The position numbers were made by a program, and so were the translations under genes. The notes beneath the pieces were generated by a model. The model was not told the origin of the DNA. It searched no databases and saw only the letters and a list, made by a program, of their open reading frames with translations. Shown here one piece after another: positions 3,744 to 59,800 of a stretch of DNA of 64,000 nucleotides. Within the stretch, counting starts at the first letter, position 1. Each line of letters opens with the position of its first letter. The stretch comes from Meghimatium bilineatum. Lineage: Eukaryota > Mollusca > Gastropoda > Stylommatophora > Philomycidae. The stretch spans positions 6,807,747-6,871,746 of the forward strand of contig CM067312.1 in NCBI GenBank assembly GCA_034231615.1, written 5' to 3'.

Positions 3744-5000
3744 GATAAAGAGGTGAAAAACCAGAGCTGTGTTTTAAAGGCACCAGTTGATTTCATTTCT
3801 CCCAGCATTATCCTAAGCGATAAGTCAACAGCCATAGTAAAGATGCAGAAAATATGGAAAACGCAAACACTTGGCGAACGCAGAGACACAAAGGTACTAA
3901 TACAAGCAGAAAAGTTTCAGTGTATGTCAAATCATGCAATGAAGGAAAGATTCCACAATCTAGCAATGGGGCGACTGAAAAGAAGCAGCTTTATCCACCA
4001 AGCTAAACGACTCTGAAGATAACTTACAGACCAACCTGAAGTTGACAGCCTTTTAAGGTCTGTACCAGAACAAACCCCCTGGAGTGAAAGGCATGGAATA
4101 CCAACATACATTCAGACCCACGTGAAAGGAATACTAAGCGAGGACGAACAGAAAAATGTGCAGCGAAGGACAGTCACCCTCAGTTTCCTAGACGAGGAAT
4201 ATCCACAATACACATGGGTCAGAGTATACACGGATGGGTCAGTACATAATGCAATGAAGAATGGAATTGTAGGTATATATATAGAATTTCCACACAAGCC
4301 TAAAGATACAATCAGAACACCAACAGGGAAATTCTGCAATAATTATGATGCAAAAATTCAGGTAATTATGATGATAACAAAAAAAAACTGTTGAACTCTA
4401 ACCCTGGTCCACAGCCCGTGGTATTCCTGACAGATGCAAGGTCAGTGCTTCAAGCTCTCCAGTCTGGAAAACTAACAGACTTGAAAAAACTACTTAGCGA
4501 ATTGTCTTACCAGTATAGGGTAACCATGCAGTGGATACCCTCTCACTGTGGAATACCAGGAAATGAAAAAGCAGACCAACTGGCTAAGGAAGGTGCTGCC
4601 GAAGACCAACCAGATATACCAATCACCTACCATCAGAAAAAACAGATGATCAAGTCAATAAGAAATCCACAAAAACCAACACAAGATGACTATCACATTA
4701 TGAACAGATCAGAACAAGTTATAATTCTACGCCTCAGAACGGGACACAACCGGCTCCGCAGTCACATGCACACAAAGTTCAAGATTGTAACACGGCCATG
4801 TGTACATGTGCACAGGCAGAAAAGAGTGCCAAACATATACTTCAAGAGTGTTCTGAGTATGAAACACTGAGGCCGACATATTGGCCAGAGGAAAACACTG
4901 GAATAAAAGTTCTATGGACCACTATATTACAAAAGTAGTGAGTTTTATTCAGGAGACAAAATTACAGATATATACATGTTTCAAGTGAACGGAAGAAGAA
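3744..5000 (+). mobile_element. RNase H LINE, 5'-truncated and broken
   Basis: The 3' part of a non-LTR element of the RNase H-bearing type. The sequence codes in pieces for VRVYTDGSVHNAMKNGIVGI (first RNase H Asp), [34 protein letters not shown] and a C-terminal region ending near RLRTGHNRLRSHM. Frame breaks lie around 4015 and 4380; the stretch that should carry the catalytic Glu is lost around 4360-4400. The element ends in GAACGGAAGAAGAAGAA. Other copies: 11600, 25736, 28690, 39330 (minus), 52198 and 62580 (minus). Confidence 0.8.
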
Positions 5001-23843: not shown

Positions 23844-26800
23844 GTAAAACTGTGAGTGTGTCAATGTAAGAATGCCGGTATTAGAATCGTATGCTTAATT
23901 AATGATGCATCGCAACCCCTGTGGAGCTTCATAATCATTTTACTTTTAGTCCTAAGCTGAAAGTTTACAGAGCAGTTGTACTTCTAGTGCTGCTATATAC
24001 GCTAGTGAAACATGGACTGTGTATAGACGTCATGTGAAAAAACTCAAATTATTTTCCTACAAATTGTCTCAGAAAAGTTACGAACATCAGATGGCAAGAC
24101 AAGATTCCAGATACCACTGTCCTTGATAGGGCTGGTATCCCAAGCATTGACACGATCCTGATGCAGACACAGATTCGTTGGGCAGGTCATTTGGTGCGTG
24201 GGGTGCATTGCTCTAGGCGGATCCAGGGTTAGCAGATAACCAAGATCCCAAATGTACCTCCACGCGGTGCACCCTGGAAACAAATACAGCAGCTCGAGCT
24301 GATTCTGGCCAAACCATTTGGGGATCGTGTCCAAGAATGTAGAGGTAGCAGATGGAAAGAGATTTGACTGCACAAGAGACAGACAATATCTCCGACACCA
24401 CCAGCATCACCACATATAGCGACACTGTCTACATACAGTGAAGCTAGTCAGTCCAGTCCGAACATTGGAGGGGCGGCCAATGTAAAATGCACGTAAAGGT
24501 AGATGCATGGCGGTAGACAAAAAAGATTTCATACCGAGTACAATGAAAGGGCAGAACAGCGCTAGAGGGCAGCGCGAACTGCAAATAGAAAGTGAAAAGT
24601 CCCTAGGAAAGGGGAACTACAAGCTCTGTCAGCTCGAGACGAGCTTCCTGTGTTCCTTACAGACAGAGCCCCAGACCTATTCATTGGCGTTTGGTACAGC
24701 AAGAAGACCTAATCCAACTCTAATGTCGAGCCTTCCTAAACCGGAAATATGCTCGCGAAGAGAAAGGGTTCTGTACCCGATGGGCTTAGGCAAGAAAGTG
24801 ACAACGATGGTAGTCCTGGCCCAACTCTACTGTCAAGGTTTCCTATACCGGAAGTACACTTGCAGAGAGAAAGGGTTCAGTACCTGATGGGCTCAGGCGC
24901 TATTGGGACAAGGACGCTCAGCTCAAGAACGCTTTGCTCTCAAACGCGTGGTGTAAGACTAGAACTAGGACAAGGGGTACACGATGTCGGTGAACGACAC
25001 CTCGGCTAAGAGGGTGAAAGAGCCAGGGTCCAACTCCTCTGTTGAGTTCTTCCCCTTAAGAAACCAGGCTCACGGATGAGAAACGGTTCAGTACCCAATG
25101 GGCACAGCACGTCCAATTACACGAGGCAAGTTCATAGACAGTGGAACACCTTGTGCGAGTCAGACGAGAGCAAAAATCGTCTGGACGAAGAGTCGCTAGT
25201 ACGCGTGCCTGGAGACAGATATAGAGGCTGTCACAGGCTAAGGGTAGCCCACCTGAATTGTCAAGGCATGCCGAATCGGATGTGCTAGGCCTACAAGGCG
25301 CACAACGTAATCACGCTCCCGGTGGAAATCGCACGGATATCCATGATGGTTACAATGGAGCGAACGCAAAACATACAAACAAACAAACATTTGGTGCGTA
25401 TGCCAGACCATCGTCTGCCAAAGATACTTCTCTATGGTGAGCTAGAGAAGGGTATACGATCTCAAGGTGACCAAAGGAAGCGCTACAAGGACTTGTTAAA
25501 GAACTCACTGAAAGCCTTTGAAATAGACCACGATACATGGGAAGAACTTGCACAGAATAGATCTACATGGCGTTCTAAAATAAAAAAGAGCGCATCATCT
25601 TGTGAAAAGAAGATAAATGCAGCAGCTCAACAGCGGAGAGCAGCTAGAAAGTCACGGATAGACCAAGATCCATCTAGTCATCATTCCATGTCCAAACTGT
25701 CCAAGGACATTTACAGCTCGAATAGGGCTCATTGGAGATGATAGAAATAAAATACAATCCCATGGATTGGACACATGCCTACACAGATGGATCGGCAGAA
25801 GGAGCAGTAAGGAATGGAGGAGGTGGAATTTTGATAAGACTCAAAGATGGGAAGACAAGATCAAAAGCTTTTCCAACTGGGAAATACTCCTCTAATTTTA
25901 GAGCAGAAGCAGTTGCAATCCATCAAGCACTGAAAGCCTTCACTGAACCAGGACTGCCAAGACCAAAGAAGATAGCCATATTCACAGATTGCAGATCCCT
26001 ACTGGAATCAATCCAGAGCAACAGAAACGAAAGCCTTCTGTACAACATCAGACATGAGCTAAGACAGATCCAAAAATCAACAGCTATTGCCCTTCAGTGG
26101 ATACCATCACACTGGAATCATGGGAAATGAGAAAGCGGATGCTCTGTCAAAGGCAGGAAGTGAAATGGAGCAACACAGACACCCACTGTCTTACGGAGAA
26201 GTAAAAACAATAATCCACAACACATACTCAGCAAAGTGGAAGAAAGAAATTGAATGGGAATACGAACATGATGCAATACATTTCCTCCAAAGATATCAAC
26301 AGACCACAATATTTCACCTTAGAACAGGCCACTGCAGACTATTGGGTCACCTTTATCGATTAAGGATCTCATACACAGATGAATGTCCATGTGGATCCGG
26401 AACCCAGACCCCGGAACACATACTTCAGGACTGCCCAACATGCAAAGACAGCAGACCTGGCCAGAGGATACAGACTTGAGGCAAAAGCTATGGGGCAGCC
26501 GCTCTGACCTGGAGAAGACAGTGGACTTCGTCTTGATGACAGGTCTGACAGTATAGCATGACCACATGCTGAGCGCAGAAGAAGAAGAAGGGCTCATTGG
26601 CCATCTACGAACTCATAATCAAGGACATAACTAAAATTGAATTTTCAAAAGTGGATGTAACAAATGGTCATCATCACTTGTGATGGACGAACAACACAAC
26701 ACACTTTTAGTCCTACTTTACCTTTTTGAACCCTAGCATCTCAGGCGTAGGTAGTCTAGTTTCCGTCAAATCGTTTCCGTCTTCCTCGAGCCTTATGTGG

Positions 26801-29800: not shown

Positions 29801-32800
29801 AACTATGGGCCTCTGTACGAGTTAAAAACACAGTGAAATTTATAGCAGAAACAAAACTTCAGATATAAGCACATACCATGCGAACGAAATAAGCTCCACT
29901 TATTTACAATAAATTTTATTGAATCTAAAACGTGTAATTTCTGCATACACATTTCATGTTATTTTATTTTTTGCAGGAGGTCGAACAGAGGCTGTTCATT
30001 TTGATAAGATTACTTCACGCATAAAAAATCTGTGCTATGGTCTGCATAAAGATTTTGTTGATCCAGTAAGTTCAGTAGAACATTTTGTTTCAATTCCACC
30101 ATTACTGATTGTTGTAGTTATAACCAGACATCATTTTACTCTAGGCAAACCCATAAGTGCAGAGTCTTCCCTTAATGATTTTTGCTGTGGCTCACTGGTT
30201 CTTCTTCAGCATTCATTCTCAAACTCCTGCTGGATCTCTCTTGTAGCACGACCATGATCCTGTCTAGATTTCCAGCAGGATGTAGTCCAGAGAATGGAAA
30301 TGCATTGTGTCGCCGTTGTCACACACGGGCAGCTTTATTCCATTCAAGGAGGGGGCAGCTTTATAAAATTGAAGTAGGACTTCCTCCTGACAATTCATGG
30401 TTCACTCTTGAATGTATTTTCTGAAGTAGTTGTTTATTTTTTATGCCTTCATTTTCAAACTCCCACCAGATCTCTCTTATAGCAGGACAATGGTCCTACA
30501 TGGTTTCCAGCAGGATGTCATCCAGAAAATAGAAATATGCTGTTATCTGTTTTATTTGCGCCAGTTGTCCGACACAACTGACGTCAGCATTGATAACTAA
30601 TCTTTTAGTGTTTTTACTACTCCCACTGAATGGTGATCTTTGACTGACCAGCTAGTATAGTAGGCCAACAGTATGAAAGAACTGTTTCTTGTACTTTGCG
30701 CTGGTCAACTAAGCTCATAGCTAACCAGTCATGCATGCTCTACCTTTTTTTCTGCTGTGTTGAATCACTATCAACATTTTATCGACATCCACTTTTGAAG
30801 CATTAAACAGGATAAGATGGTTATAATCAGAACCAGAGCAGGCTTCTGTCTGCTTAGAAGTTTTGTTTAGGAAATACTCACAGGAAGTCAGAATGTTTTA
30901 ATGAGGTTGAAATCCATAGGGGAAAAGAAGAAAAGACAAAGAAAACCATGAGAAGTGACTGAAATTTATCACACGTTTTACTAGAACCTAAAGGGAGCAA
31001 AGAACAGTAACACTGACCTGCTGTTCCTGCCATTAGAGGCAAATAAGGAAGTTTAAGTGGCGTTAACTGCCTTAACTCAAAATGATGTGCTGAAGTTGGA
31101 TATGTGGATCTTCTGCTTTCATTCTCAAACTCTTGCAGATTAACAGGATGAAGTCCGGAGAATTGAATGTGTTGTCATGGTTTACAGCATTGCTGCGATA
31201 TCTTCAGCCTGACATATCCGACTTCAGCAAGGCTTTGGGTTGCTGATCCTATATTGGATGGGACAGCCAATTCCATCCCATAACCTCCTTTGTCGCCTCT
31301 TGCGACATGCATAAAAGGTAAACAGTATTGTTATTCTTTGCTCCCCTCTCGGGCACTGACAACACACGGGCGATGTGTTAGTCTGAAAATGGAGATGGCA
31401 GCCAAGATGTTAGCTAGATTATATGTAATATACATTCTATTCTTTTGTCTATTAGGTAAGAGTTTTAACTCTTTCTGGGCGTAATTATTCAAAAATTACA
31501 CCATAAAGGGATGTTATATGAACAGAAACTTTTTTTTCACGCATTTTGTTCTACTTACCTTCAATTTTATTTGAAAATGTTGCTATCCAATCTTACAAAA
31601 GTATACCTTGACTGCCCATTTCCTGATCATAATTAGTTTATTTGAAATCTGTCAATTGCCTAGTGTTTTATGCCATTTTTGTGTGTTTCATGTCAAATTT
31701 CAGAACTGTACAAAATATTGTGAAGCTTTACAAAATGTTCCCAAGTATTGGATTTCTAAAGTTGAACTTTATTCCACTCAAAATTATCTTTAAGCCTAAC
31801 TCTGTATAACGTAGCGCATTGTTGTCACTAGGACTATCTGATTCTTCAGAAACAATAGCAGTGGGAGCAGTTTTATAATTTTTTAGCTGTTATTTTCAAT
31901 AATATTAGGTCTATTTCTTTTCAAATATTCAAGTCTCCGCTGTCAAAATCGGAAGCACTTGTTTTCTGCCACATTGCTTGAAATAAAATCTCCAATTATA
32001 AAACTCAAAGAATAATAAAGCCCGATGTTTGCTAAATCTTTGAGTTCTCTTACTAGTGGAAGATGAAGCCAATTTGTTAATTTCAGAAAAGCTAAACCTA
32101 CCTTGTTTGAATTTTAATTAAAAATAAATACCCGGTATGTCATGTGTCTAATCACACAGTACCACAAGAGTTTTGTTTCATTAGCCAGATTTCTAAAGTT
32201 TAAACAGCTAAATAAATAAATACTAATTCATTTACGACCGAAACTAAGCAAATTTAGATGGGCATATCTGCAAGAACGAATAATCGTGGATTTGCCATCT
32301 GGAATTTTATCTGCAATGATTAATGATTTTTATTGGCGGAAAGAGTTAATCTTAAAACGAACATGTGAAAAAGTAACCATTTTTATTTGTTACTCATATT
32401 GCCAGGGCTCACACAGGGAGAAATGATTAACTGTGGCACTCCTTGTATATTGTAAGAGGCGGCCAAGGAGGTTTGTAGTGAGTTTCTTCAGCATTAATTC
32501 TGAAAGTCTTGCTGGTTATGTCTTGTAGCAGGACAATGTTCCTACTAGATATCCAGCAAGATGTAGTCCAGATAATGGAAATGCATTGTTGCTGTTTAAG
32601 TTGTGCAAATGACCCAACACATCCATCTTCTGTGGATATGGCCATTTTATTCCAGTGTCACTTAAACTCTAAAGCATTGATGGGCAAAATACGGCCCACC
32701 AAGCTATTTTAGTCCACCATGCTGATCTAACTGTACTATATGTGGCAAGGAATAGCGCTATCGCTGGTGAACAGGTGTGGAGTGCAACGCTGGTCTGGCA

Positions 32801-38800: not shown

Positions 38801-41800
38801 ATTCTCAACAGACTTCTTCCATCCTGTCCTGTCTTTTGCTATTGCTTCTAGCTCTTTTCATGTCCAACCATCGCCTAAGTGGAGCATAACTTCTAGTTCA
38901 GGGTGAAAAGAATAGGGCCACTGTTTTGTTTCCAGGCATGTCGTGGAAAGTTGCAGGAAAGATAGCATGACTTCTAGTTCAGGGTGAAAAGAATAGGGCC
39001 ACTGTTTTGTTTCCAGGCATGTCGTAGAAAGTTGCAACTAAGGAAAGTTGCGGGAAAGATAGGCTGACGACCTAACACCTGCGGAAAAAAATTATTTTTA
39101 CATCTTGTCTCAGTTTCTTACTTTTGTCTTTTATCAAATAATCCCTATAGATTATGAAGAGATGCAGACCAGTGGACATTGCACGTTTGTCCTTTTGTGG
39201 TAGATTCCTAGGTGACGGAGAGTACTAGATGTACCATCACCGCTGGTCAGCAAATCTGACAGAAGAATGATGAGATAGTTGGTCCAAAAATGTGTACTGT
39301 GATCTCTGTACGACATGGTAATCCTTCTGCGTTCAGGAATCTTTTGGTCTCGCTAGATCTTCAGGCCAGTCATCAGGACGAAGATCCCAGTCTTCTCCAG
39401 GTCAGAGCGGCTGCCCCAAAGTTTTTGCCTCAGTTCTTTGTATTCTGGACGGTCTTAGAGTATGTGTTCAGGGGTTTGTATTCCTGTTCCGCATGGACAT
39501 TCATTTGTGTGGGCCACCCTGATCCAGTACAGGTTACTCTATTGCCTGCAGTGGCTATAGTCGAAAGATGATGGGTCTGTTGTTACCTATGAAGTTGGTG
39601 TATGAGGTCTGGTTTCGAGTCAATATCCATATCTTTCTTCCACATCGATGTATAAAGGTTACGGTTTAGTTATTTGACCATACTGTATGGCAGAGGATAG
39701 CTGAATTGTTCCATTTTACCTCCTGCTTTTGACTTTTTGGGTATCAACTCTCTAATTTCCAGTGATACCACAATGGGCGGGTGGCCATTGCAGAGTGATG
39801 TATGACTTTTTTTATGTTTGCCAGTTCTGGTAATCCTGGAATACTGCCTCACTGGAATGCTTCCCTTAGTGGACTAAACATGCCTCTATAAACTCCCCTT
39901 ATACCACCATTAAAGACAACCTTAAATGAGTCTTGGTGTCACCTCAGTTAGTGAACCTGGGTTTTTTTCTGCCAGTAAGGATATGGGCTGTCAAGAGCTA
40001 CCAGCTCACAGCTAAAGGAATTATTTCATCATCATCCATGTCTTTCCCTGATTTTGTGTCTCTGCATCTAATTATTTTTTCTTAATATTTTCCTATGAGT
40101 TTCAAAACAATTCCTGTCTTACTATTCTTGCCTTTGGTTTTCTTAATGTATGTCAAATTCATCTCCTAATGGAGTGTCAGCGCCATTTATTTAGTTTTTC
40201 CTGGTTGGTTGATTGCTCTTTGACCCAATGCCATTAAATGGCATTATATTGCTGGGAAGTGTGTGGATTTTCGGCCCACCCCGGGACAGAGAGAATAACT
40301 ATCACACCTCCAGGAAGGTAGGTTTCAACCTATGCGCTGCTCCTAGCCACTGTAGCCAAGATAGGGTTCACTGTGCTCATTCCCCGCCACCAAATGACTA
40401 CTGGTTATGCCCAACATCTCTATTGTTCTAGGCATGCAACCAAATGTTCACGTCAAAAGGATTATCACGTCCTGAGTCACTGTGCCTCTATGATGGGTCT
40501 CAGCCATAGGAAAAAAACAGTGCTGTCAGTTTTCTCCTCCCCGGTGCTGCACAGTACATCTCTGGCTCCCTCCCAATCACAGAGGGTGCATACATATATT
40601 CAAGTAAACAAGGAGCATAATTGTATAGATGACGTGCCATGAAGCTTCTCTAAGAAGATAACCTCAATATAACGACATGTCATCTACTAAGGTTTTCTGT
40701 TGCATGGGCCATTGGTGAGACTCACAGACGCAACCGCATGCGTTTGGTTTTTCTTCAACAGTAGTTATCTTGTTCTTTACATGAGTTTCTTATTGATGGT
40801 CTTATACCATGTCCAACCTTTTATTCTGTGTGACATTCAAATATAAGGCAATACTGCAGTGAAACGGAACAACAATAGCACTTACGTAGAACACAGGTTT
40901 TTGATGTTTCAGAAACAACAGAATTTGATGATTTAACAGGAAAATCCAAGGTAACAATGACATCCGTACACAAATACCTCGTGTACTATCATAGAGACGC
41001 ATGTTAAAAACATTGAGGAATGAGAATGAAATAATGACTTAAAACAAGATGGAATGGCAGCAACAGCTGAAGACGGATGTGTGAAAATAATCTTTAAGGA
41101 AGTGACCACTGGGACATGGAATTTCATGTGCCTGGAACGTAACGCATAAGCACAGCAGACATAAAATGGTGACGTTTGTGGAAATACGGTTGAAGCAACA
41201 TGATGTGATTGAATTCCTGGTGGCGGAATGTTGTGCGTCCATCGACTTGCATAGAAGAATAACTGTGATACCAGATGGTGAAGCCTGTGTGGATGTAAGT
41301 ACTGTCAGGAGGTAGGCAAGGACTGTAAAAGACGTCTGGCCTGTATGACCAGGAGCACAGCAGACGTTCAATTACAGCACTAAACTCACTTGGACGAATT
41401 GATTCATGCCAATCGCTGTATCAAGCAGAAAGATATCGCCATAATTCTTTGGATTTTGACTGAGCGAAGCCATCACATTATCCATGCCTTCCTTGGGTAT
41501 AAGAAAGTGTGTGCGAGATGGGTGCCTCGCATGCTGACATCGGAAATGAAATAAAACAGCAGGTATATCAGCAACTTCTGACGCGATATAAACAGGAAAG
41601 TGACGCTTTTATCAGCAGAATTGTCACTGGTGACGAGTCATGGGCACATCATGACCCTGAAAAGAAGCATCAGTCCATGGAGTATAGGGATAAGAACTCA
41701 CCGCTACCGAGAAAGTTCAAGGTTGTTGCTTCTGCGGGAAAAGTGTTGAAGACCACCTTTTGGGACTGCGAGGGTGTAGTCCACGTGGAATTTTTGAAGC

Positions 41801-44800
41801 ACAGCACTACCATCAACTCCGAACGCGGCTGCTGCATGTTTGTGTGGGCAAGTTCGCAGTTCTTCAGCATGACAATGCTTGACTACACGAGTCGACAAAC
41901 AGTGGCTGCATTGGAGCGTCTCAAGTTTGATGACATTTTACAGCACCTGTCATACAGCCAAGATCTGGCACCATGTTACTTTTTTCTCTTCCTGTAGCTG
42001 AAAGAACACCTCAACGGACACTTATGCTTCTGACAAGGAGGTACAAGCAGCCGTGCATACCTGGTTTCGGGGGAAAATATCTGATTTCTTTCTAGATGGT
42101 ACACAACAACTAGTCCGACGTTGGCATTTGTGTGTGGACCGGAATGAGGACTGTGTTGAAAAATAATGACACCTCACTTGTAAGGACATTCCAGGCTTTC
42201 AGAAAATGTAGAGTTCATATGTGTATCTTGAATATTAATAAAATAATCACCTATGTGGCAAAAATTTTCAATTCACCCTCGTATTTTGTAGTGATTAAGA
42301 AATCTGAATTAAGGTCAGCGATTTGTCAAATCTTTCAGTTGCTGAACGACCCCAACAGATGTTGATGAGAGTTGCTGTTGGTATCCACAAAGATGACATT
42401 GATGCTGCCATTGAGGTCAGTATGCGTTTGTATTTTATCTGGTTTATGAGTGTAAATGTCATGTGGTTTGTGAAAACTGTTTGATCAATTATGAACTGTC
42501 ACTGCAAACCCATAGTCGCTCAGTCTCTTCTAGCAAATACTGAAGTATATGTATACTAATGGTTCCTGTGGCTCGTTAGTTGAACACATTCTTCATTCTG
42601 CCCCTCAAATGCCCAGTCCTACTTGTATCACACTGAATACCGGATAAGATTCAATTGTGTGTGTTTATATATATATATATGTGTGTAATAAAAGAGTGCG
42701 TTATTGAAGGATTCCACTTTATTTATATGTGTGTGTGTGTGTGTGGTTTTTTTTATTTTTTATGTGATGTATTCTTTCCAGAACGTAGTCTTCCTTATGA
42801 GTCTCCTGAAATCTGCAGTCTCTGGCAAGTTTTAAACAGCTGTAAACCCTGACAACACATTCCATTCTCTGAACTACATCCTGCTAATCTGCTGGAGTTT
42901 GAGAATTAACACAGAAGTATAAGATACTTGATATGTATTCTATAGTCACAATATGCTCTTTAATATCATATTGTTTATTTCTTCTATTACAGACGTACAA
43001 TCTGTTTTATATCATATTGTTTATTTCTTCTATTACAGACGTACAATCTGTTTTATATCATATTGTCTATTTCTTCTCTTACAGACGTACAATCTGTTTT
43101 ATATCATATTGTCTATTTCTTCTATTACAGACGTACAATCTGTTTTATATCATATTGTCTATTTCTTCTATTACAGACGTACAATCTGTTTTATATCATA
43201 TTGTCTATTTCTTCTCTTACAGACGTACAATCTGTTTTATATCATATTGTCTATTTCTTCTATTACAGACGTACAATCTGTTTTATATCATATTGTCTAT
43301 TTCTTCTCTTACAGACGTACAATCTGTTTTATATCATATTGTCTATTTCTTCTATTACAGACGTGCAATCTGTTTTATATCATATTGTCTATTTCTTCTA
43401 TTACAGACGTACAATCTGCTTTCTGAGAAATGGTTTATCCATGCTTCTCCAACTCTTTTTAATGCTGGTACAAACAAGCCTCAAATGTCAAGGTACTATT
43501 TTTTACAAAACCTTACAACTCATGTATTCAAGAGCTAGTCTGTCTGAGAGATACTGAACACATCTCAGATATCCAAGACACAAGTTTCATTTTTCACCAC
43601 TGGTAGTTGTGCATCCATCCGGACTGTTCATAAAGTAATGGCAACCTGCTGAATATAAATAGGGCCTATAAATTACTGCAGCTTTTAATTCTAGGTTGAT
43701 CACTGTCCTGAATAAGGACATGCTAGCAACATTATAAAAAAATTAATTTAATGTTCCGTAATTTTCATTTATATAAAATATTTCGATAACTTTTACAAAA
43801 CATTAACGGAGTAAAAATGTTATTCACCGGGAGCAACCCAGAGAAAAATAATGCATACTTCCTCTGCCAGCCTGCCATTTTTTATGACTTCTGGTTTTTC
43901 TGTATGTGTTTGCTTTTTTGATGTAACTTTTATTTTTTGGGTTATTGATTTTAACCTTTAGCAAGCCGGATTAAAAAATACAAAACCTCTTCCTGCCACC
44001 GGATTCTTTTTTGAGAATTTTCATCTTTTCTGGTTGGTGTTACGGAAATGCAATAACTTTTTTGTTATTCGTGATAAAAAAAAAAAATTGTCCGTGCAAA
44101 TGCAGAATTGAATACCGCAAATGTATGTATATTTTAAAAAAATTTTATGTAACATACCCGGGGTTTGCGCAGGAAGTGAACACCTTTTTTGCGCAAAAAA
44201 CCAACAGAAACAACAAGACATGGGTGTTCGGAAAACTCAATAACATTTTTGCTATTAGAGATTTTAAAATAATTTCAACAGATTTAAATGCAGAATTGAA
44301 TACTGCAAATGGGTGTGTAATTGTTTTTTTTTTATGTATCTTACTCGAGTTTTGCGCAAGAGGTGAAGACATTTTCTCGAAAAAACAAAATATATGCAAA
44401 AAAGACACGGGTGTTCGGAAAACTCAATAACATTTTTGTTATTAGAGCTTTTAAAATAATATCAACACATGTAAATGCAGAATTGAATACTACAAATGGG
44501 TGTGTAATTGGTTTTTTTTTATGTATCCTACCCGAGGTTTGCGCAAGAGGTGAAGACAATTTTTATTTTAAAATTACATAAAAACAAACAACACAAATGA
44601 CTTACCCACTGGCCATGCAGCTCTGGAGTAAACCTACAGGCTGTGCTGCTCTCCTACATGCTGTGCAGCTCAGAGGAACAATCAATTTTGAAATGTACCA
44701 ATGTGTGGTATCTATGGAAGCAGGGGTAGGGGCACAGAGTGACCTGACATGCTGCGCACACGTACTGAGTCTGGTGACGCTTCTTTGACCGATCTGAACA

Positions 44801-47800
44801 GACTACACAGTCAGGAAGCGCAGGCTTGCCACTGGACAACCGTTTAGGATTTATAGCAATATGGTGTATTGCCAATCATGCTTTCATCGATACTGATTTC
44901 TTTGGAGAGGCCATAATACTGTTGGAACAGAGGAATAAGTTTGTCAACAAACCCCTGTATCTTGAACGCCTTGCTGTGACCCGGTTGCCCTCGTGCAACA
45001 GCTGTTGTGTTGTCTACAAGGTGCAGGAATGAAAGAATAGCTAAAATCTATTCCTACTCATGATATTCCTGAACCCAGGCATCTTGATGAGACCATCATT
45101 AGACCAATACAATTCAAAGGAGGAACGTTTGGTCAGTCCCATCATGAGCACCAAAGCAACAAAAGCTGTCATCTCATCAGCTGTGACTTCCTTCCACATC
45201 TTCACACGAGATGCATTGCCGGCGGCCTGTCCCTTCGAATCACTAACCTGCTTAGCGTAACGATTAGTTTCAGTTACCAACATGTTCACAATATCATCTG
45301 TAATAAACAGACGAAACACGTCTACCGCACTAATGTCATCAGCTAAGCCTATAGGTCCAACAACTTCATCGAAGTTGCTAAGCCAATCATGGCTATACCC
45401 CGAAGGAACACTAGAATTTCCAACAATTTCTTCTTCCAATATGTCGTCATCGGCCACGCTGCGAACTGAATCAGTATCACTATTATCTCTATCTAACAAC
45501 ACATCATCTATTGGAGCGATATCTGCATCTGTTAACGGCACACTTACCTCCTCATCCGAATCGGGATCCATTACGAACGCAAAATAAATTGTATCCATTG
45601 TAGGCCTAGGTTGCTGTCGGAAAATGCGATGGAACAATGTCTTGACGCTACTGTAAATTATAACAAATGGACAGGGCGGACGTGAACTGGTACCGGCTTC
45701 GATTGCGCATGCCCTGAACTACATACATGCTGTGATTTGGCTGTTGTAAGCCTATTTGGCACAATGTCTCATTGAGTGAGTGCACTTGACAACGGTAAAC
45801 AGCCGCCATCTTTTTTTTGTCAAACAGATTTAACAACGGCGCGGTGAAGGTTAAATTCTGAGACAATACAGATAAGTGGATGCTGGATATACTGGTTTTG
45901 TTTATGTGTGTGAGTGGATGCTGGATATAGTGGTTTTGTTTATGTGTGTGAGTGGATGCTGGATATACTGGTTTTGTTTATGTGTGTGAGCGGATGCTGG
46001 ATATAGGGGTTTTGTTTATGTGTGTGAGTGGATGCTGGATATAGTGGTTTTGTTTATGTGTGTGAGTGGATGCTGGATATAGTGGTTTTGTTTATGTGTG
46101 TGAGCGGATGCTGGATGTAGTGGTTTTGTTTATGTGAGCGGATGCTGGATATAGTGGTTTTATTTATGTGTGTGAGTGGGACTAACATAGAGAATAACAA
46201 AAACACACAGACATAATGACTTAAGTTTCCTGACAGGCCTAGACTAGACCTAGTCTACTCACGGAGCCAAGGATGATGACAGCGCTAGAAAACCTGTAAC
46301 TACTGACAGAATTTACATCACTATTATTATATATTATCATTTCCATTATTATACCTTGATCTTGAGTAACTAGCACACTGAAGCCTTCAAAATCTCCTTC
46401 GATGGAATCAATATCCACGAAGTATATTCCTACATGAACAATGGCTTTCCAAAGTGTAATAATGTGGCTTCTTAAAGTTAATAGACTAAATATAATGTAC
46501 AGGTCTTTCAAATACTGCTGAAAAATTCTGGGACACTCACTCTAGCAAAGAGTTATTATAAAATCATGATCGGAAAAGATAATGTGAGACTTTTTACCAT
46601 GATAACAATTGACTAATTGGAATGTGATATTCCGCTGTTGGGTTGCTATCGATCGGGACAAAAAAATATCTGACATTTTCTTCAGGTTAAGAAACACTCC
46701 TGTTATATGAAAGAAAATCATGAACAATAAAAGAATAAATTAGTAGGATCTAGTGGATTGCAAAGATGTACAAAGGAATTCTGATAACCCTATGAGTGGC
46801 TAGAAAAAATAGTGAGGAAGATTTTTTAGAAACTAATGAGTTATTGAGGTAATTTCACCGGTGTGTTGCCGGGGCCCGAGAGGGTAGCAAAGAATAGCAA
46901 AACTGTATATTATGTGATGTGTCCCTTTTTTTAGCGGAACAAATTACTACATTACAAACGGAACGGAATGTAGCATTTTACTTGAGCTATTACTGTTGCC
47001 GCATGCAGAGACTGCACTTTGATACATAATACTGTGGACAGAGAGCTGTGGAGAGTCATGACCGCCTACGACAGCCGGCATGGCACATGATGATGATGAT
47101 GCTGAGATTTGAAATATAATTGTGACAACAGGAAAATCTGATAGAATGATGAGACAAGAATTGTCAAAGGAAGAATATACAATTTGGACATGAGAGAATG
47201 ATAGTCAGTAGTGAAGTTAATATACATCATTGCAGATAGAATGTAGAGATTCATTATCACTTATGGCACATGGGTAAAAGTGGTTAATTTCCAAATGTTG
47301 AACAATAAATTTGTAAATATTTGCTATGTACTTGGATAGTAACACAATGTTGAACAATAAGTTTGTAAATATTTGCTATGTACTTGGATAGTAACATAAT
47401 GTTGGACAGATGTTAAGATTATATTTTTTCACTTTCCATATAGCTGTTTTCTGCTGACCATTGACTCTGACAGCATTGAAGGTATCTATAGCACTCTTAA
47501 AACCTGTGCTATGATTTCTAAAAGTGCTGGTGGAATAGGACTTAATGTTCACTGTATTCGGGCAACTGGAAGCTACATTGCTGGGGTAAGCTGCAAGTCA
47601 TTCTGGACTCTTCCTGGTGTAGTGGGAACACAGCCATTCGCTGTGTGCTCAAGTTGTGGGTTTGAATCCTGCTCGCTACATCTTGTTTATAAAGTAGATT
47701 TTTTTTAGGTTTCCAGGGAATATTCCTTGAAGCTAGAGCTATGTGTGGTACTCTTCACAGTCATCATACCGCTTCGTTGAGAGAGGCAGAGTGCATATGG

Positions 47801-50800
47801 AGTAACCTGAGCGCAATTAAATCAATCCTTTATACTTCTTTAACCTATTTTTTAGTTATTCTGTTACAGCAAGCTGTCATAATAGGAGATTAAGTCTGAT
47901 ATTTAGTTCATTAAGAAATATAGCATTTTTCTCACTTGTTCAGTTTCGGTGATCATTCTAAATCTTCAGTCTTGTCACTAGAATAAATCACATTGTATTT
48001 TCTAAATCTTGTCTTGTCACTAGAATAAAGCACATTGTACTTTCTAAATCTTGTCTTGTCACTAGAATAAAGCACATTGTACTTTCTAAATCTTCAGTCT
48101 TTTCACTAGAATAAAGCACATTGTACTTTCTAAATCTTGTCTTGTCACTAGAATAAAACACATTGTACTTTCTAAATCTTGTCTTGTCACTAGAATAAAA
48201 CACATTGTACTTTCTAAATCTTGTCTTGTCACTAGATTAAAGCACAGTGTACTTTCTAAATCTTGTCTTGTCACTAGAATAAAGCACATTGTACTTTCTA
48301 AATCTTGTCTTGTCACTAGAATAAAGCACATTGTATTTTCTAGGTAAGAGTCTTCCCTATTACTTCTTCCAAGATAAGGACATTAATTTTTCTTAAAATC
48401 AGAGCATGCTCCTGTGTGTTCACAGAGCCCAAGAGGGAAGCATAGAAGAGCAACACTGTTACCCACCATACATTTCGTAGGAAGCGACTAATGAGTTTTG
48501 AGGTGGAGTTGACAGTCCCATCCATAGAGGGTCAAAGTGATCCAGAAGCCATGCTGAAATCAGATATGCCAGCTAAGCTGGGCTTCAGATCACATCCTAC
48601 TGATCTGCAGGAGTTTAAGAATGAATAAAGAAGAATCACAGTATGAAATCTCAATAGCTTTTCATAAGTTAGCTTCACTTTAAAGAAGCTATTTCACATT
48701 CTGTGTATAATACATAATCTTGTGTATGTCAATGAGTTCTGTCCTTTTATTATTAATTATTTATGAAATAAACTGAGTTCTGTCCATTTGTTAATTCGTC
48801 AGACAAATGGAGTGTCTAATGGATTGGTACCAATGTTGAGGGTTTATAACAACACTGCAAGATACGTGGACCAAGGAGGGAATAAGGTATGAGTTTTGAA
48901 ATTGCTTACAGTTGTTGTGTATTATTGGTGTTTTTAATATCTTGAAATTAATATGGAAGTCATTACAGTTTTCGCCTGTGTGTTACTAAGTTCTAAAGGG
49001 GAGAAAAATAGCAACACTGTACCTTTGATGCATGTCATAAGAGACGACTAATGGGCAGCACACCTGAAATTTCTATATGTAAAGTTAGACTTTTAGTAAC
49101 AGCCTGAATCAGAGAATTATTGCTCGCCTGTGAGTAGTCTCTTTACTGTTATCACAGTTGATCTGTAGCGGCCGTTACTGACCCGAGGTACTTATTACCC
49201 GGCTGCTGATTTAATTAGCTGGTGTTGAGGCTAGGGGAATTCCAATCTGGACATTGGTGAAACGAAATGACTAAAACATTCTTCTACATATTACAGACAG
49301 GCGCAATTATTCAAACTTTCAACTAACTATATTAATCCTGGCAGTAATCCAAATTTAAAAAAACTGCTAAATTCATTTTGGATTGCTGTGCACATTTAAT
49401 ATTTATACAGGTACGGAAATATCTGTATTTTTCATGTTAATTCAGCAGGCCTAGTCTCATTGTTGACAAAATAAATGTGCAAAATAAACTATTATCTCAC
49501 AATTATGGTCAACGTGATCCGGAAGCCTTGCTGAAGTCTCATGTTTCAGGCCGAAAGGTGCAGATATCGCAGCAAAGCAGTAAACTATGACACAAAGCAT
49601 TCCGTTCTCCGGACTATATCGTGTTAATCTGCAGAAACTTAAGAACGAATGTAGAAGAATGTGAAGCATTTAGATCATTTAGCATTTTATAAAAATAGTG
49701 ATTCTTGACTGTAAGGTGCCTTGACTTATCGGAGAATACACACATTTTATAAGTTCTCGCAGTTTTAATGAATTTTGAAGACTACTAATTTTTATGGCTT
49801 AACAGCAAATGAGAAAATTTCAACTTGCGCAAACTGGCTCTAGGTTCAAATTAGTAGTCATTCTATTCACTTAACACTGGCAATTCTATGGAAAATGAGC
49901 TGTGTCTAAAATTCAATAATAGATTCAAGTGTCCTATACAACGTACAGATATAATAATAGATTCAAGTGTCCTATACAACGTACAAATTCAATAAGGAGT
50001 ACATATGTGCTTTATTCTTCCTTGAAGGCCGCAAGAGGTCAGTCTTGGTAGGGCAATACCTTGACTGTCCCCTTCCTTCTCTGTCATCCTATTTGTGCTG
50101 CATGACTTGCCAAGACATGAAAGAGAATCAAAGAATAGCAACACTGACATGTCATCAGAGGCGACCAATGAGATTTGTGATTGGCTGTCCCCATCCCACA
50201 GATCAAAGTGACTCGAAAGCTGTACAAGATGTTTAAGTCAATTTGCTTTATCTATTCCAGAGACCTGGAGCCTTCGCTGTATATTTAGAACCATGGCATG
50301 CTGATATATTTGAATTTCTGGACTTGAAGAAAAATACTGGCAAAGAAGAACAGCGTGCAAGGGATCTTTTCTACGCCTTGTGGATTCCTGATCTTTTCAT
50401 GCGTCGTGTGGAAGCAAATGAAAATTGGACACTTATGTGTCCTCATGAATGTCCTGGACTAGCAGATGTGTGGGGTGAAGAATTTGAGAAACTTTATCAG
50501 AAGTGAGTTATTTTAGTAGTTTCTTGTATCCAATTAGTGCCTACCTGTGTGATTATGTCTCTTGGCTACGTTTAATCGTTTATGTTTATAATTTATTAAT
50601 TTAAATATAAATATATTTAGGATTAGGGTTAGAATTAGTTATGTAAAACATAACTAACCCTAAAAATGAATATTTAAATTAATTATTGATATAATATTTA
50701 GATCAATTAATCACAAAATTAATTAATAAAAAAAATAACGGATGTGTTGGGCTATTGGCGCAAATAAAACGGTAACAACGCATTTCCATTTTCTGGACTA

Positions 50801-53800: not shown

Positions 53801-56800
53801 CTTCTGTGTCACTTTGACCCTCTTGGATAGGACAGCCAACCCTACCACTGAAACCTTATTTGCCTCATGGAAGGTCACAGTGTCGCTATTCTATGCTTTC
53901 CTTTTAAGCCCCGACAACACACAGCCACCTGCAATATTTCATTTCTAATAATTGTTTTTTTATAATAATTGTCTGTGAATTGCCTCTAACTTAAATGTGT
54001 TTCTACTTTATTTCCAGGTTGCCGTCTGCAACTTGGCATCAATTGCACTAAACATGTATGTCAAACCAGACAAGACATTTGATTTTGATAAACTACAGCA
54101 AGTGACTAAAGTAATTGTTCGCAACCTGAACAAAATTATTGATGTCAACTATTATCCAGTCCCTGAGGTAGGCCCTATCATGGTTTAGTTCTTTAAGCTA
54201 CATAAATCTTCAGTTTTCCTTATTTTGTGTTAGTTTTTAAATTCATTCCCTATGGTACTGTTGATTTAAATTTATTTATTGTTTGTAAGATTAGTGTAGA
54301 TCAGGTGTAGCCAACCAGTGGTGCATGGAATGGTTATGTACAAAAGAACCCAATCTCCTATTGGGTCAATGGTCAGAAAGACATCAACCAGCAAATGTCA
54401 TAGAGATTTATTATTAATGTTGTTTTCACGTTCCTTTTTTTGCCTACAGTCATATTTAGGAAATGAGATGAATGGACACTTCAAAATGTCCTACATCTAG
54501 TTTCATTATTTCTTGAATTATCTTTCAACTAACGTACAGTTGGTTCTAAATATATGTTTATATATACATTACTTCTATAGGCAGAGCGTTCTAACAAACG
54601 CCATCGTCCAATTGGCATTGGTGTCCAAGGGCTTGCGGACACTTTTATTCTCATGCGCTTCCCTTTTGACAGTCAAAAAGCTATGCAGCTAAACAAAGAG
54701 ATTTTTGAAACTATCTACTTTGCTGCATTGGATGCTAGCTGTGAACTGGCTGAGAAACTGGGCCCGTATGAGACTTATGAAGGAAGCCCCATCAGCAAGG
54801 GCATTCTCCAACATGACATGTGGAATGTGAAATCAGTATGTATAAATTTTGTTTTCTGAAAATCTTTGTGTAAGGTGTTTATGTTTCTTTACTATGAGAT
54901 GTGTTCAAATGAAACCTGTCTGGTGCTACACCACCTATGCAAAATGGAAGCATTGGAAGGTGGGTACCATAGTTACTGAGTAAGGTTTAGTTATTAAGGA
55001 AAATTGAATGGGGTGGAGTTGTAACCATTTGCAGCGTTACTATGCGGAGGTTAATACATTTCTGTCGTCATGAATCTTGTCACCAAGCAGCCACATTGCA
55101 ATTGAAATATCCTGAATCACCAAAGAGCAAAAACTTCAAATCACAAATTTCCGCAAGAAAGGTTATGCTTACTGCCCTTTTTACCAAGGACTCTTGTGTG
55201 TAGACTTTAAAAAGCCATCAATGCTATCTTATGATGTAGTCCAGTGAACATCAGTTCTATCTGCCTCATGAACACACTAGACAAGCTGCATACAGCCATA
55301 TTTCATGTGATCTTCTGTGACAGTCTTCCTATCTGTCATCGGGCAATTACGAGTTTCTACTCTGTCATGATGGTTTATCATCCACCGTGCCCTTGTACCT
55401 TAAAGGTCAAAACAAGATCTAGCATGTCCCGTGCTACCCGTAAGTCATCAATGAATGCTTTTGCTGATAACTAGATATAAAATATAATTTGTGACATAAC
55501 TCTTTGCTATATACCATGATCAGTAATACTTTCGAAACGTTACATTATAGATAACTAACCTCAACTGGGTCGGTCTGAGACAACGTATTGGCAGATTTGG
55601 AGTAAGGAACAGTCTTTTGTTGGCTCCAATGCCGACGGCATCCACAGCACAAATCCTCGGAAATAATGAATCTATTGAAGCATACACAAGCAACATTTAT
55701 ACAAGGAGAGTTTTGTCTGGAGAGTTTCAAGTTGTCAACCAGCATCTGCTGAAAGGTATGTAGTAATTACAGATATCTTAAATGTACAGACCACGCCAAA
55801 GTCGAATTATCGGGTCATTTACATAAATAAAATAGTGAGACTGAATTTCCATTCATTAAACTCATCATCATGTCTCCGCAACGAAGGTTGGCTGCATCAG
55901 ATCTCCAACATCCCCTGTCTCTTGTTTAGGTGGTGCACTCTGCTAGACTGTAACGTGTCCATCTTGTGATGTTACTCTCTCACTTGTATCTCTGTCTACC
56001 TCTTGATCGCTTCCATTTGACTTTTGTAGATCAATCAAGTAAGATCTTCAATAAGGTGTCATGTCTTTTAATGTGTCCAAAATATTTTATTTGCCTGATC
56101 TTCATTTCTCTTAGTAGTTCTTTCTTTATATTTAGTGTTTTGGCACCTCTTTATTTGTGAGCTATGTCCTGCTAGAAATCTATTAGGACCATTGTCCTGA
56201 TACAAGAGAGATCTAACGGAAGTTTAAGAGCGAACAAACAAAATATATGTATTGTTCAAGTAACTTTATTTCCTGATGTCTTTAACATTCAAGGTGTGCT
56301 ATCCATCCGTGAATCTTACCTTTACTAACATCCAAGGTGTGCTATCTATCCGTGAAACTTACCTTTACTAACATTCAAGGTGTGCTATCCATCCGTGAAA
56401 CTTACCTTTACTAACATTCAAGGTGTGCTATCCATCCGTGAAACTTACCTTTACTAACATTCAAGGTGTGCTATCCATCCATGAAACTTACCTTTACTAA
56501 CATCCAAGGTGTGCTATCCATCCGTGAAACTTACCTTTACTAACATCCAAGGTGTGCTATCCATCCATGAAACTTACCTTTACTAACATTCAAGGTGTGC
56601 TATCCATCCGTGAAACTTACCTTTACTAACATTCAAGGTGTGCTATCCATCCATGAAACTTACCTTTACTAACATCCAAGGTGTGCTATCCATCCGTGAA
56701 ACTTACCTTTACTAACATTCAAGGTGTGCTATCCATCCGTGAAACTTACCTTTACTAACATTCAAGGTGTGCTATCCATCCGTGAAACTTACCTTTACTA

Positions 56801-59800
56801 ACATCCAAGGTGTGCTATCCATCCATGAAACTTACCTTTACTAACATTCAAGGTGTGCTATCCATCCGTGAAACTTACCTTTACTAACATTCAAGGTGTG
56901 CTATCCATCCATGAAACTTACCTTTACTAACATCCAAGGTGTGCTATCCATCCGTGAAACTTACCTTTACTAACATTCAAGGTGTGCTATCCATCTGTGA
57001 AACTTACCTTTACTAACATTCAAGGTGTGCTATCCATCCGTGAAACTTACCTTTACTAACATCCAAGGTGTGCTATCCATCCATGAATCTTACCTTTACT
57101 AACATTCAAGGTGTGCTATCCATCCGTGAAACTTACCTTTACTAACATTCAAGGTGTGCTATCCATCCATGAAACTTACCTTTACTAACATCCAAGGTGT
57201 GCTATCCATCCGTGAAACTTACCTTCACCTTCTCATACAGTGCACCTCCTTCTCTGTATTAAAACTATGCAGTAATAATAGGCCTACACTCCAATTATTT
57301 AACGTGAGAATGCACTAGGCAAATTGGTTAGTGGAAACAAATTGAACAGCTCTTGAAATTTCCCTGCACTGCAGTTACAGTTTGACCTTTTCATTCGGTG
57401 CAGCTAAGGGGTTACGTTTTGGTTGGTTGAAAGAGAAACGAAATTATGGTGAAAGTCTGTGTAATTGGCAACGAGACTGTATCTGTTTCACAAGGAAAAA
57501 ACTAGCTGATACTTGGAGAAGCAGAACATTGATAACCATTCTCTTAGTTGACAGGCAGTGATTACGTCATGGAAAAGAATGCACAAGGGAAACAATAATT
57601 GAAATAGGCATATAAAGTATGTTAATAATTGTCATAACCATATATAATAAATTTTGGTTATAACGCACTCATTCTGTCAGGACCAATTGGTTATAATGGG
57701 ATTTCACTATACTACTAAAATTCTTTCATGCTTCCATATGATTGCTTTTCTGAATACAAAATACTGCCAAAGATGGATGTGTCTGACCAAAGGCAGAAAT
57801 AAAACAGAGACACAGCACATTTCCTCTGGATTACATCCTGCTGGAAGTCTAGTAGGATCATTGTTCTGCTATAAGAGAGATCCAGCGGGAGTTTGAGAAT
57901 TAATTTTGAAGAATACAAAATGGTGGAACATATTTTCAAAATATATACACACACACACACACCCTTCTCTTCTTCCCCACCACCCCCCCCCCCCCTTCTC
58001 CTGAATAACAGGCTTCTTAACGCATTGCACATGACCGTTGGAGTCTTCTTAAAACACCCACATTGCACTGCACACAGGGCACAGACTTTAAATTCCAAAG
58101 TGCTTTAAATTCTAAAGTATGTCTACACATTAAAACATAATATATTCTTTTTCCTTAATTGGGAGTGAGGATGGACGTGGCCAGTAGAGAACCCCTGACA
58201 AAAATTTCAAAAAGAGGAGTGAATCAACATAGAACCGGAACCATCCACTGTTATACCCTGAGATATTTACTGAAGCAGAGATCTGATCACCCATGTCTGG
58301 TATGCGAAGAGGATAATCAACAAACTTAATACCTAATATTCTTTTTCATTCACATTAACTATTCTTGTATTACAATTTTTAGTGTGATCCTGGGGTGCAA
58401 AGGAAACGCTTTGCTCTAGGCAGACCCAGGGTTAGCAGATAACCAAGATCCCAAATGTACCTCCTCGCGGTGCACCCTGGTAACAGAAAACAGCTCGAGC
58501 TGATTCTGGCCACATCATTTGGGGATCGTGTCCGAGAATGTGGAGGTAGCAGATGGAAAGAGATTTGACTGCAAGAGAGACAGACAATATCTCTGTGTGA
58601 CACCATTTGCATCACCACATACAGCGACACTGTTGACATACAGTGACGCCAGTTAGTCTAGTCAGAACATTGGATGGACGGCCAATGTAAAAGGCACGTA
58701 AAGGTGGATGCACAGCGAGAAATAAATATGTGTTATAATGAGTACAATGACACAATGAAAGGGCAGAACAGTGTGAGAGGGCAGCGCGAACTGCAAATAG
58801 AAAGTGAAAAGTTCCTAGAAAAGGGGAACTACAAGCTCTGTTAGCTCGAGACGAGCTTCTAGTTACCTGTGCTCCTTTTAGGCAGAGACCCAGACCCAAT
58901 TGTGGGCTTTCGGAAAAGCAAGAAGACCTAAACCAACTCTAATGTCGAGCCTTTCTAAACCAGAAATGTTCTCGCGAAGAGAAAGGGTTCCGTACCCGAT
59001 AGGCTACGGCAAGAAAGGGACAACGATGGCAGTCCTGGCCCAACTCTGCTGTCAAGAATTCCTATACCGGAAATACACTTGCAGAGAGAAAGGGTTCAGT
59101 ACCTGATGGGCTCAGGCGCTATTGGGACATGGTCGTTCAGCTCGAGAACGCCTTGCTCTCAAACGCGTGGTGTGAGACTCAAATTTGGGCGAGCGGTTCA
59201 TGATGTCTGTGAACGACGCCTCGGGTAGGAGGGCGAACGAGCCAGGGTCCAACTCTTCTGGCGAGTTCTTCCTCATACAGAACCAGGCTCGCGGATGAGA
59301 AACGGTTTAGTGCCCGATGGACACAGGCAAGAGTATGTTCAATTGCACGAGATGGGTTCATAGACGGTGGAACACCTCGTGCCAGATAGACGCGCTCTAC
59401 AAGCATCTTGGCGAAGAGACACTACACACCAGCGTGCCCAGCGACAGATAGAGGCTGTCACTAGGGACCAAACCCAAAATAAAGAAATGACGAAAACGGG
59501 TGTGCTGGACCTCGGACGTCCTGACCACAAGTGGCCAACTGGGGTGCAAATAATCACAGTTCTACTGTGGAACTTGCAGCACAACGTACTTCACGCTCCC
59601 CGGCAGAAATCACACGAAATATTCGTTGTGGTTATTTGAGAGCGAACGCTGAAGAAGTGTGATCGTTAAAAAAACCGACTTTGAAACGTGCGTCTACAGA
59701 TTTGTCGTTTAAGTTATTGGCAAAGTTCAGGTGATGTAATATTTTTAAGTGTTTGCAATAGTTCATCATAATGATGGGTTATGATTAGAATTAGCAAGAT

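Follow-up and report, generated by a model that had tools for sequence, protein, structure and literature searches.

In the RRM1 gene of Meghimatium bilineatum, the 3′ splice site of one exon is repeated ten times by a minisatellite with a 46-bp unit. We put the probability at roughly 80% that this is a tolerated minisatellite of the kind called "mirage" in amphioxus, with the exon-proximal acceptor being used and the nine others being intronic decoys. Boundary minisatellites are known from amphioxus; the RRM1 case is new, and a repeat-rich genome most likely produced it as a tolerated by-product. Positions below refer to the window, which is the whole stretch of 64,000 nucleotides analyzed, and a slash in a sequence marks a splice junction.

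RRM1 and the exon behind the array

Human RRM1 matches placed the gene at 29977 to 64000 on the + strand. Sixteen exons were located there, the last of them cut short by the window end, and an additional coding exon lies beyond it (about 65244 to 65513 in window numbering). Each of the 16 exons matched human RRM1 and, with the coordinate of the fifth set to 38698, their joined sequence forms an open frame of 711 codons. A peptide assembled from several of them matched the human protein with an E value of 3e-196.

The preceding exon (42339 to 42415, +, identified by its human RRM1 match) ends in the donor GAG/GTCAGT and is followed by a 991-bp intron (42416 to 43406, +), the 3′ end of which is the array. 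The real exon (43407 to 43492, +) was defined by the human protein match and the reading frame. It is entered at the tenth acceptor, where GAG/ACG TAC gives DIDAAIE/TYNLLSE as in human RRM1, and it ends in the donor AAG/GTACTA. It is exon 8 if the window lacks one exon farther upstream, and it leads to the segment ahead of the RRM1 active-site cysteine, which we take to be catalytic. The matches, the frame, and this junction confirm the gene and exon named in the initial annotation. When exons 6 to 9 were joined and searched in the genome, there was no processed RRM1 copy among the seven matches; the same query matched a second RRM1.

Extent and variation of the array

Tandem Repeats Finder (TRF) reported the array at 42959 to 43422 on the + strand, with a period of 46, 10.1 copies, 97% matches, 0% indels, and a score of 872. 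The first repeated exon start is at 42993 to 43004 (+), behind an acceptor AG at 42991 to 42992, and all ten acceptors fall at exactly 42993 + 46n (n = 0 to 9), the final one being 43407. This is the arrangement that had been proposed from inspection, that is, ten acceptors at 46 bp ending at the true exon. The unit is made of 34 intronic bases (tract plus AG) and 12 exonic bases. The latter, ACGTACAATCTG, are present in 10 of 10 copies, with a single A-to-G change in copy 9. The array is not a chance alignment.

Any two copies differ by 0 to 3 bases. Copies 4, 5, and 7 are identical to one another, as are copies 3, 6, and 8. A T/C variant at one tract site separates copies 1 and 2 from copies 3 to 10, an A/C variant 7 bases ahead of the junction is C in copies 3, 6, and 8, and private changes occur in copies 1, 9, and 10. 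Tandem repeats are often mis-sized in assemblies, and the copy number given here comes from one assembly. Even so, we think it very improbable that the copy number is wrong or the copies false, since variants are interspersed among the copies, which would argue against a simple assembly duplication, and since many arrays of the same style occur elsewhere in the genome.

Searching the genome with the array, where best candidates only were scored and very common words skipped, gave one full match and 12 others at 64 to 71% identity. With a single full match, an introner-like dispersed element was rejected. The one further match read among the 12 (L002) is an unrelated AT-rich repeat, and we did not retain these matches as relatives.

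Comparison with known boundary repeats

In structure, the RRM1 array is a mirage. As excerpted, PMC3087553 describes amphioxus mirages as minisatellites across exon-intron boundaries in Adh3 and in the globins BflGb6 and BflGb9, and those in Adh3 and the globins are said there to leave regular splicing undisturbed. PGBD5 and a remark on troponin C add further cases (PMC3902484, in excerpt). The RRM1 unit likewise spans an exon-intron boundary and carries splice signals (all ten copies have the AG and the tract), its 46 bp lie within the 10 to 72 bp given for Adh3 in the same excerpt of PMC3087553, and acceptor-side and donor-side cases occur in the amphioxus excerpts as they do in the present genome. 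The host gene is different, however, and the ten copies here differ by so few bases, whereas the BflGb6 mirage is described with units of 150 to 160 bp, repeated 6 times in one haplotype and 3 times in another, at 81 to 100% identity (PMC3087553). Splicing and instability were studied in amphioxus, whereas the RRM1 array is known from the sequence of one assembly.

Minisatellites at exon-intron boundaries also alter gene structure in human segmental duplications, where, according to the excerpt of PMC2812944, they differ from one paralogue to another and may give rise to novel introns; the RRM1 intron, in contrast, is present in the paralogue too. Tandem acceptors of the NAGNAG type, as outlined in part of PMC3250501, resemble the array in having multiple AGs ahead of one exon but differ from its 46-nt spacing and from its separate tract and branch-like motif for each AG. 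Among the matches listed from the open-licence literature, to queries in which RRM1 was not a term, no title concerned boundary minisatellites in snails or other molluscs.

Splice signals and the outcome of each acceptor

Each unit looks like a complete acceptor, with a branch-like motif, a tract, and one AG (ten of ten). Of the 17 tract positions, 14 are pyrimidines in copies 3, 6, and 8 and 13 in the other seven copies, so by this count the real acceptor is not the strongest. The sites had been called equal in strength, which stands as far as pyrimidine count goes. A branch-site-like yTnAy motif lies 30 nt upstream of the junction in every unit (TTTAT, or TTAAT in copy 1), and copies 1 and 2 have a second one at 16 nt.

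In the scanning model, as summarized in part of PMC1431707, the first AG after the branch point is chosen, and AGs within about 12 to 15 nt of that point can be skipped. With an AG every 46 nt, use of 43407 under this model requires a branch point within the last unit or immediately upstream of it, and we infer that the branch point of the real exon lies there. The suggestion to consider scanning was therefore a useful one, as one AG and one branch-like motif per unit constrain the branch point to the region of the last unit.

Because 46 equals 3 × 15 + 1, the acceptors 3, 6, and 9 units upstream keep the frame, with predicted insertions of 46, 92, and 138 residues. The other six shift the frame: splicing 1, 4, or 7 units upstream runs into a stop just inside exon 8, and splicing 2, 5, or 8 units upstream stays stop-free to the end of that exon. 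With six of the nine upstream sites frame-shifting and three giving an in-frame insertion, a functional enzyme most likely depends on the tenth copy. The last acceptor is also where, and the only place where, the protein reads as in human, which is why we take it as the one used. In a working RRM1 mRNA, the spliceosome would pair this acceptor across the short exon with its donor and with exonic signals (exon definition), and the nine acceptors upstream would be intronic decoys, probably reflecting tolerance rather than function. They could be used at some rate. Exclusive use of the last acceptor would mean that downstream exon context counts for more than transcription order or nearness to the donor.

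The unit is stop-free in all three frames. This was reached by 6.2% of dinucleotide shuffles and by 15% of those with the acceptor core kept. The difference is not significant, and the stop-free unit was rejected as a sign of coding; it speaks neither for nor against a coding role.

Ten sites of similar pyrimidine content might also be read as a redundant acceptor platform, one of the options offered in the initial annotation, which selection against splice-site loss would have kept. The frame analysis speaks against that reading, as an upstream copy cannot substitute for the last without a frameshift or an insertion of 46 to 138 residues. Moreover, no further RRM1 exon edge in the window lies within an array. 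A platform or timing role finds no support here, and we regard selection for redundancy as extremely improbable.

The second RRM1 as a control

The genome (1.61 Gb in 32 contigs) holds the second RRM1 on contig C22 at about 35972436 to 36016056. Its coding segments align from human residue 7 to the C-terminus, with small gaps between segments and no stops within the aligned segments. Its introns are at matching places by eye, with some exon ends off by a few bases. At the matching exon, there is a single acceptor, TTTTCATATCAG/ACGTACAATCTG, and no array was detected there by TRF at score 40 in a 3.1-kb locus. By comparison of coordinates, none of the 26 arrays in the 100 kb around this gene spans a junction. 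A short array at about 36016039 to 36016210 of C22 (76039 to 76210 of the 100-kb stretch) repeats the last codons and the stop of the gene.

The two paralogues are 86.8% identical, with a dS of 1.87 (near saturation) and a dN/dS of 0.047 over 711 aligned codons. Paralogue codons read as stops were skipped by the script, but none of the 711 positions was left empty. At exon ends, a few codons were perhaps aligned to intron, which would raise dN. The low ratio indicates that both genes have been constrained since an old duplication. Most simply, the array would be younger than that duplication, unless it was lost in the paralogue. A 46-bp segment straddling the exon acceptor was probably duplicated in tandem and grew to ten copies in one of the two genes. 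Intron gain by tandem duplication was rejected, since the paralogue also carries an intron at this position. The host had been described as an essential catalytic gene; it is indeed RRM1, but "essential" is weakened by a second RRM1 whose aligned coding segments are free of stops. Taken together, ten near-identical acceptors, one constrained exon, and a paralogue with a single acceptor as a control make a natural experiment on acceptor choice.

Tandem repeats at other exon edges

The window contains 29 merged tandem arrays covering 9.2% of it. Eighteen lie in the RRM1 span, where one contains an exon edge. When the 18 were placed at random, the mean was 2.7 edge-containing arrays, with 0 in 4% of trials, 1 in 16%, 2 in 26%, 3 in 26%, and more in the remainder. 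The shortfall is not significant (0 or 1 in 20% of trials). Arrays are thus not aimed at RRM1 exon edges, and, in DNA so rich in tandem repeats, one at an exon edge is unsurprising.

Two other arrays in RRM1 introns carry splice-like motifs. At 56283 to 57225, a 43-bp unit is repeated 22 times, and the reverse complement of its consensus holds a strong donor-like AAG/GTAAGT, antisense to RRM1. At 47956 to 48342, nine copies of a 42-bp unit hold an acceptor-like TTGTCACTAG/AATAAAGC on the + strand. Pfam also recognized fragments of Transposase_1, DDE_Tnp_1_7, and RNase H in the window at 41503 to 41994 (+), 45044 to 45718 (−), 25726 to 26127 (+), and 4352 to 4867 (+).

We surveyed 70 exon matches with 140 edges in the same genome, made up of 30 myosin-head matches, the first in a list of 67, and 40 kinesin matches, the first in a list of 123. 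The sample is small and covers two families, and the edge of a match need not coincide with that of an exon. An array contained seven of the 140 edges. At 15 loci, an array overlapped with the open frame of the match. Fourteen of these were read; at the fifteenth, L082, the array stops 75 bases short of the match. At 3 of the 70 sampled exons (about 4%; 95% interval, 1 to 12%), the array repeats a splice junction. L048 has five copies of a myosin donor (...NYLLEK/GTAATC), the first being real. L080 has at least six copies of a kinesin donor (...DSKLTRLLQ/GTAAGC) in a 47-bp unit, again with the first being real, in an array that runs off the fetched stretch. L060 has seven copies of a kinesin acceptor (TTATAG or TTATAAG ahead of GT(C/T)AG), the last being real; it is the weakest case, since few exonic bases are common to the copies, and its paralogue L061 has a single acceptor. 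Arrays come close to a junction without crossing it at L054, L061, L070, L092, and L093, and at L094 the pyrimidine tract is repeated and the AG is not.

The idea that the RRM1 array is unusual or unique does not fit with published amphioxus mirages and three more junction arrays among 70 sampled exons. The alternative raised with it, a tolerated expansion, agrees with these other junction arrays, with the frame consequences, and with the single-acceptor paralogue. Should the survey rate hold more widely, boundary minisatellites would frequently generate variation in splice sites here and could mislead gene annotation.

Array cover was 5.0% within 10 nt of an edge, 7.5% at 10 to 50 nt, 13.1% at 50 to 100 nt, and 16 to 17% beyond 100 nt (flanks overall, 7.6% for myosin and 18.6% for kinesin). 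This thinning fits with most hits near splice sites being removed, although part of it follows from the design, since a number of matches end within an exon and the flank there begins with exon DNA.

These distributions also bear on whether the array tunes RRM1 output, with some transcripts splicing upstream and copy number setting the fraction of unproductive mRNA. Ten near-equal acceptors would allow this, as would the six frame-shifting upstream sites, three of which meet a stop soon after the exon begins. However, these outcomes are predictions, the paralogue has no array at the matching exon, RRM1 exon edges are not enriched in arrays, and arrays thin out toward the sampled exons. Tuning is, in our estimate, quite unlikely, and tolerance remains the preferred reading. 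A broader picture, speculative and rather unlikely as a whole, would have thousands of junction-repeating minisatellites in the genome (extrapolated from 3 of 70), with exon definition picking among near-identical sites and copy number setting a heritable, frame-dependent leak of unproductive mRNA.

Two surveyed arrays have further splice-like motifs. The unit of L080 (kinesin, contig C21) also holds CATTCCTTACAG/AGATTC within the coding exon, an acceptor-like stretch with a donor after it, which gives each unit the look of a miniature exon. Near a myosin exon on contig C23, L041 repeats a 50-bp unit about ten times at 94 to 625, with a donor-like GATGAAG/GTAGGTTTG (GAAG/GTAGGT) on the gene strand to which no exon could be tied.
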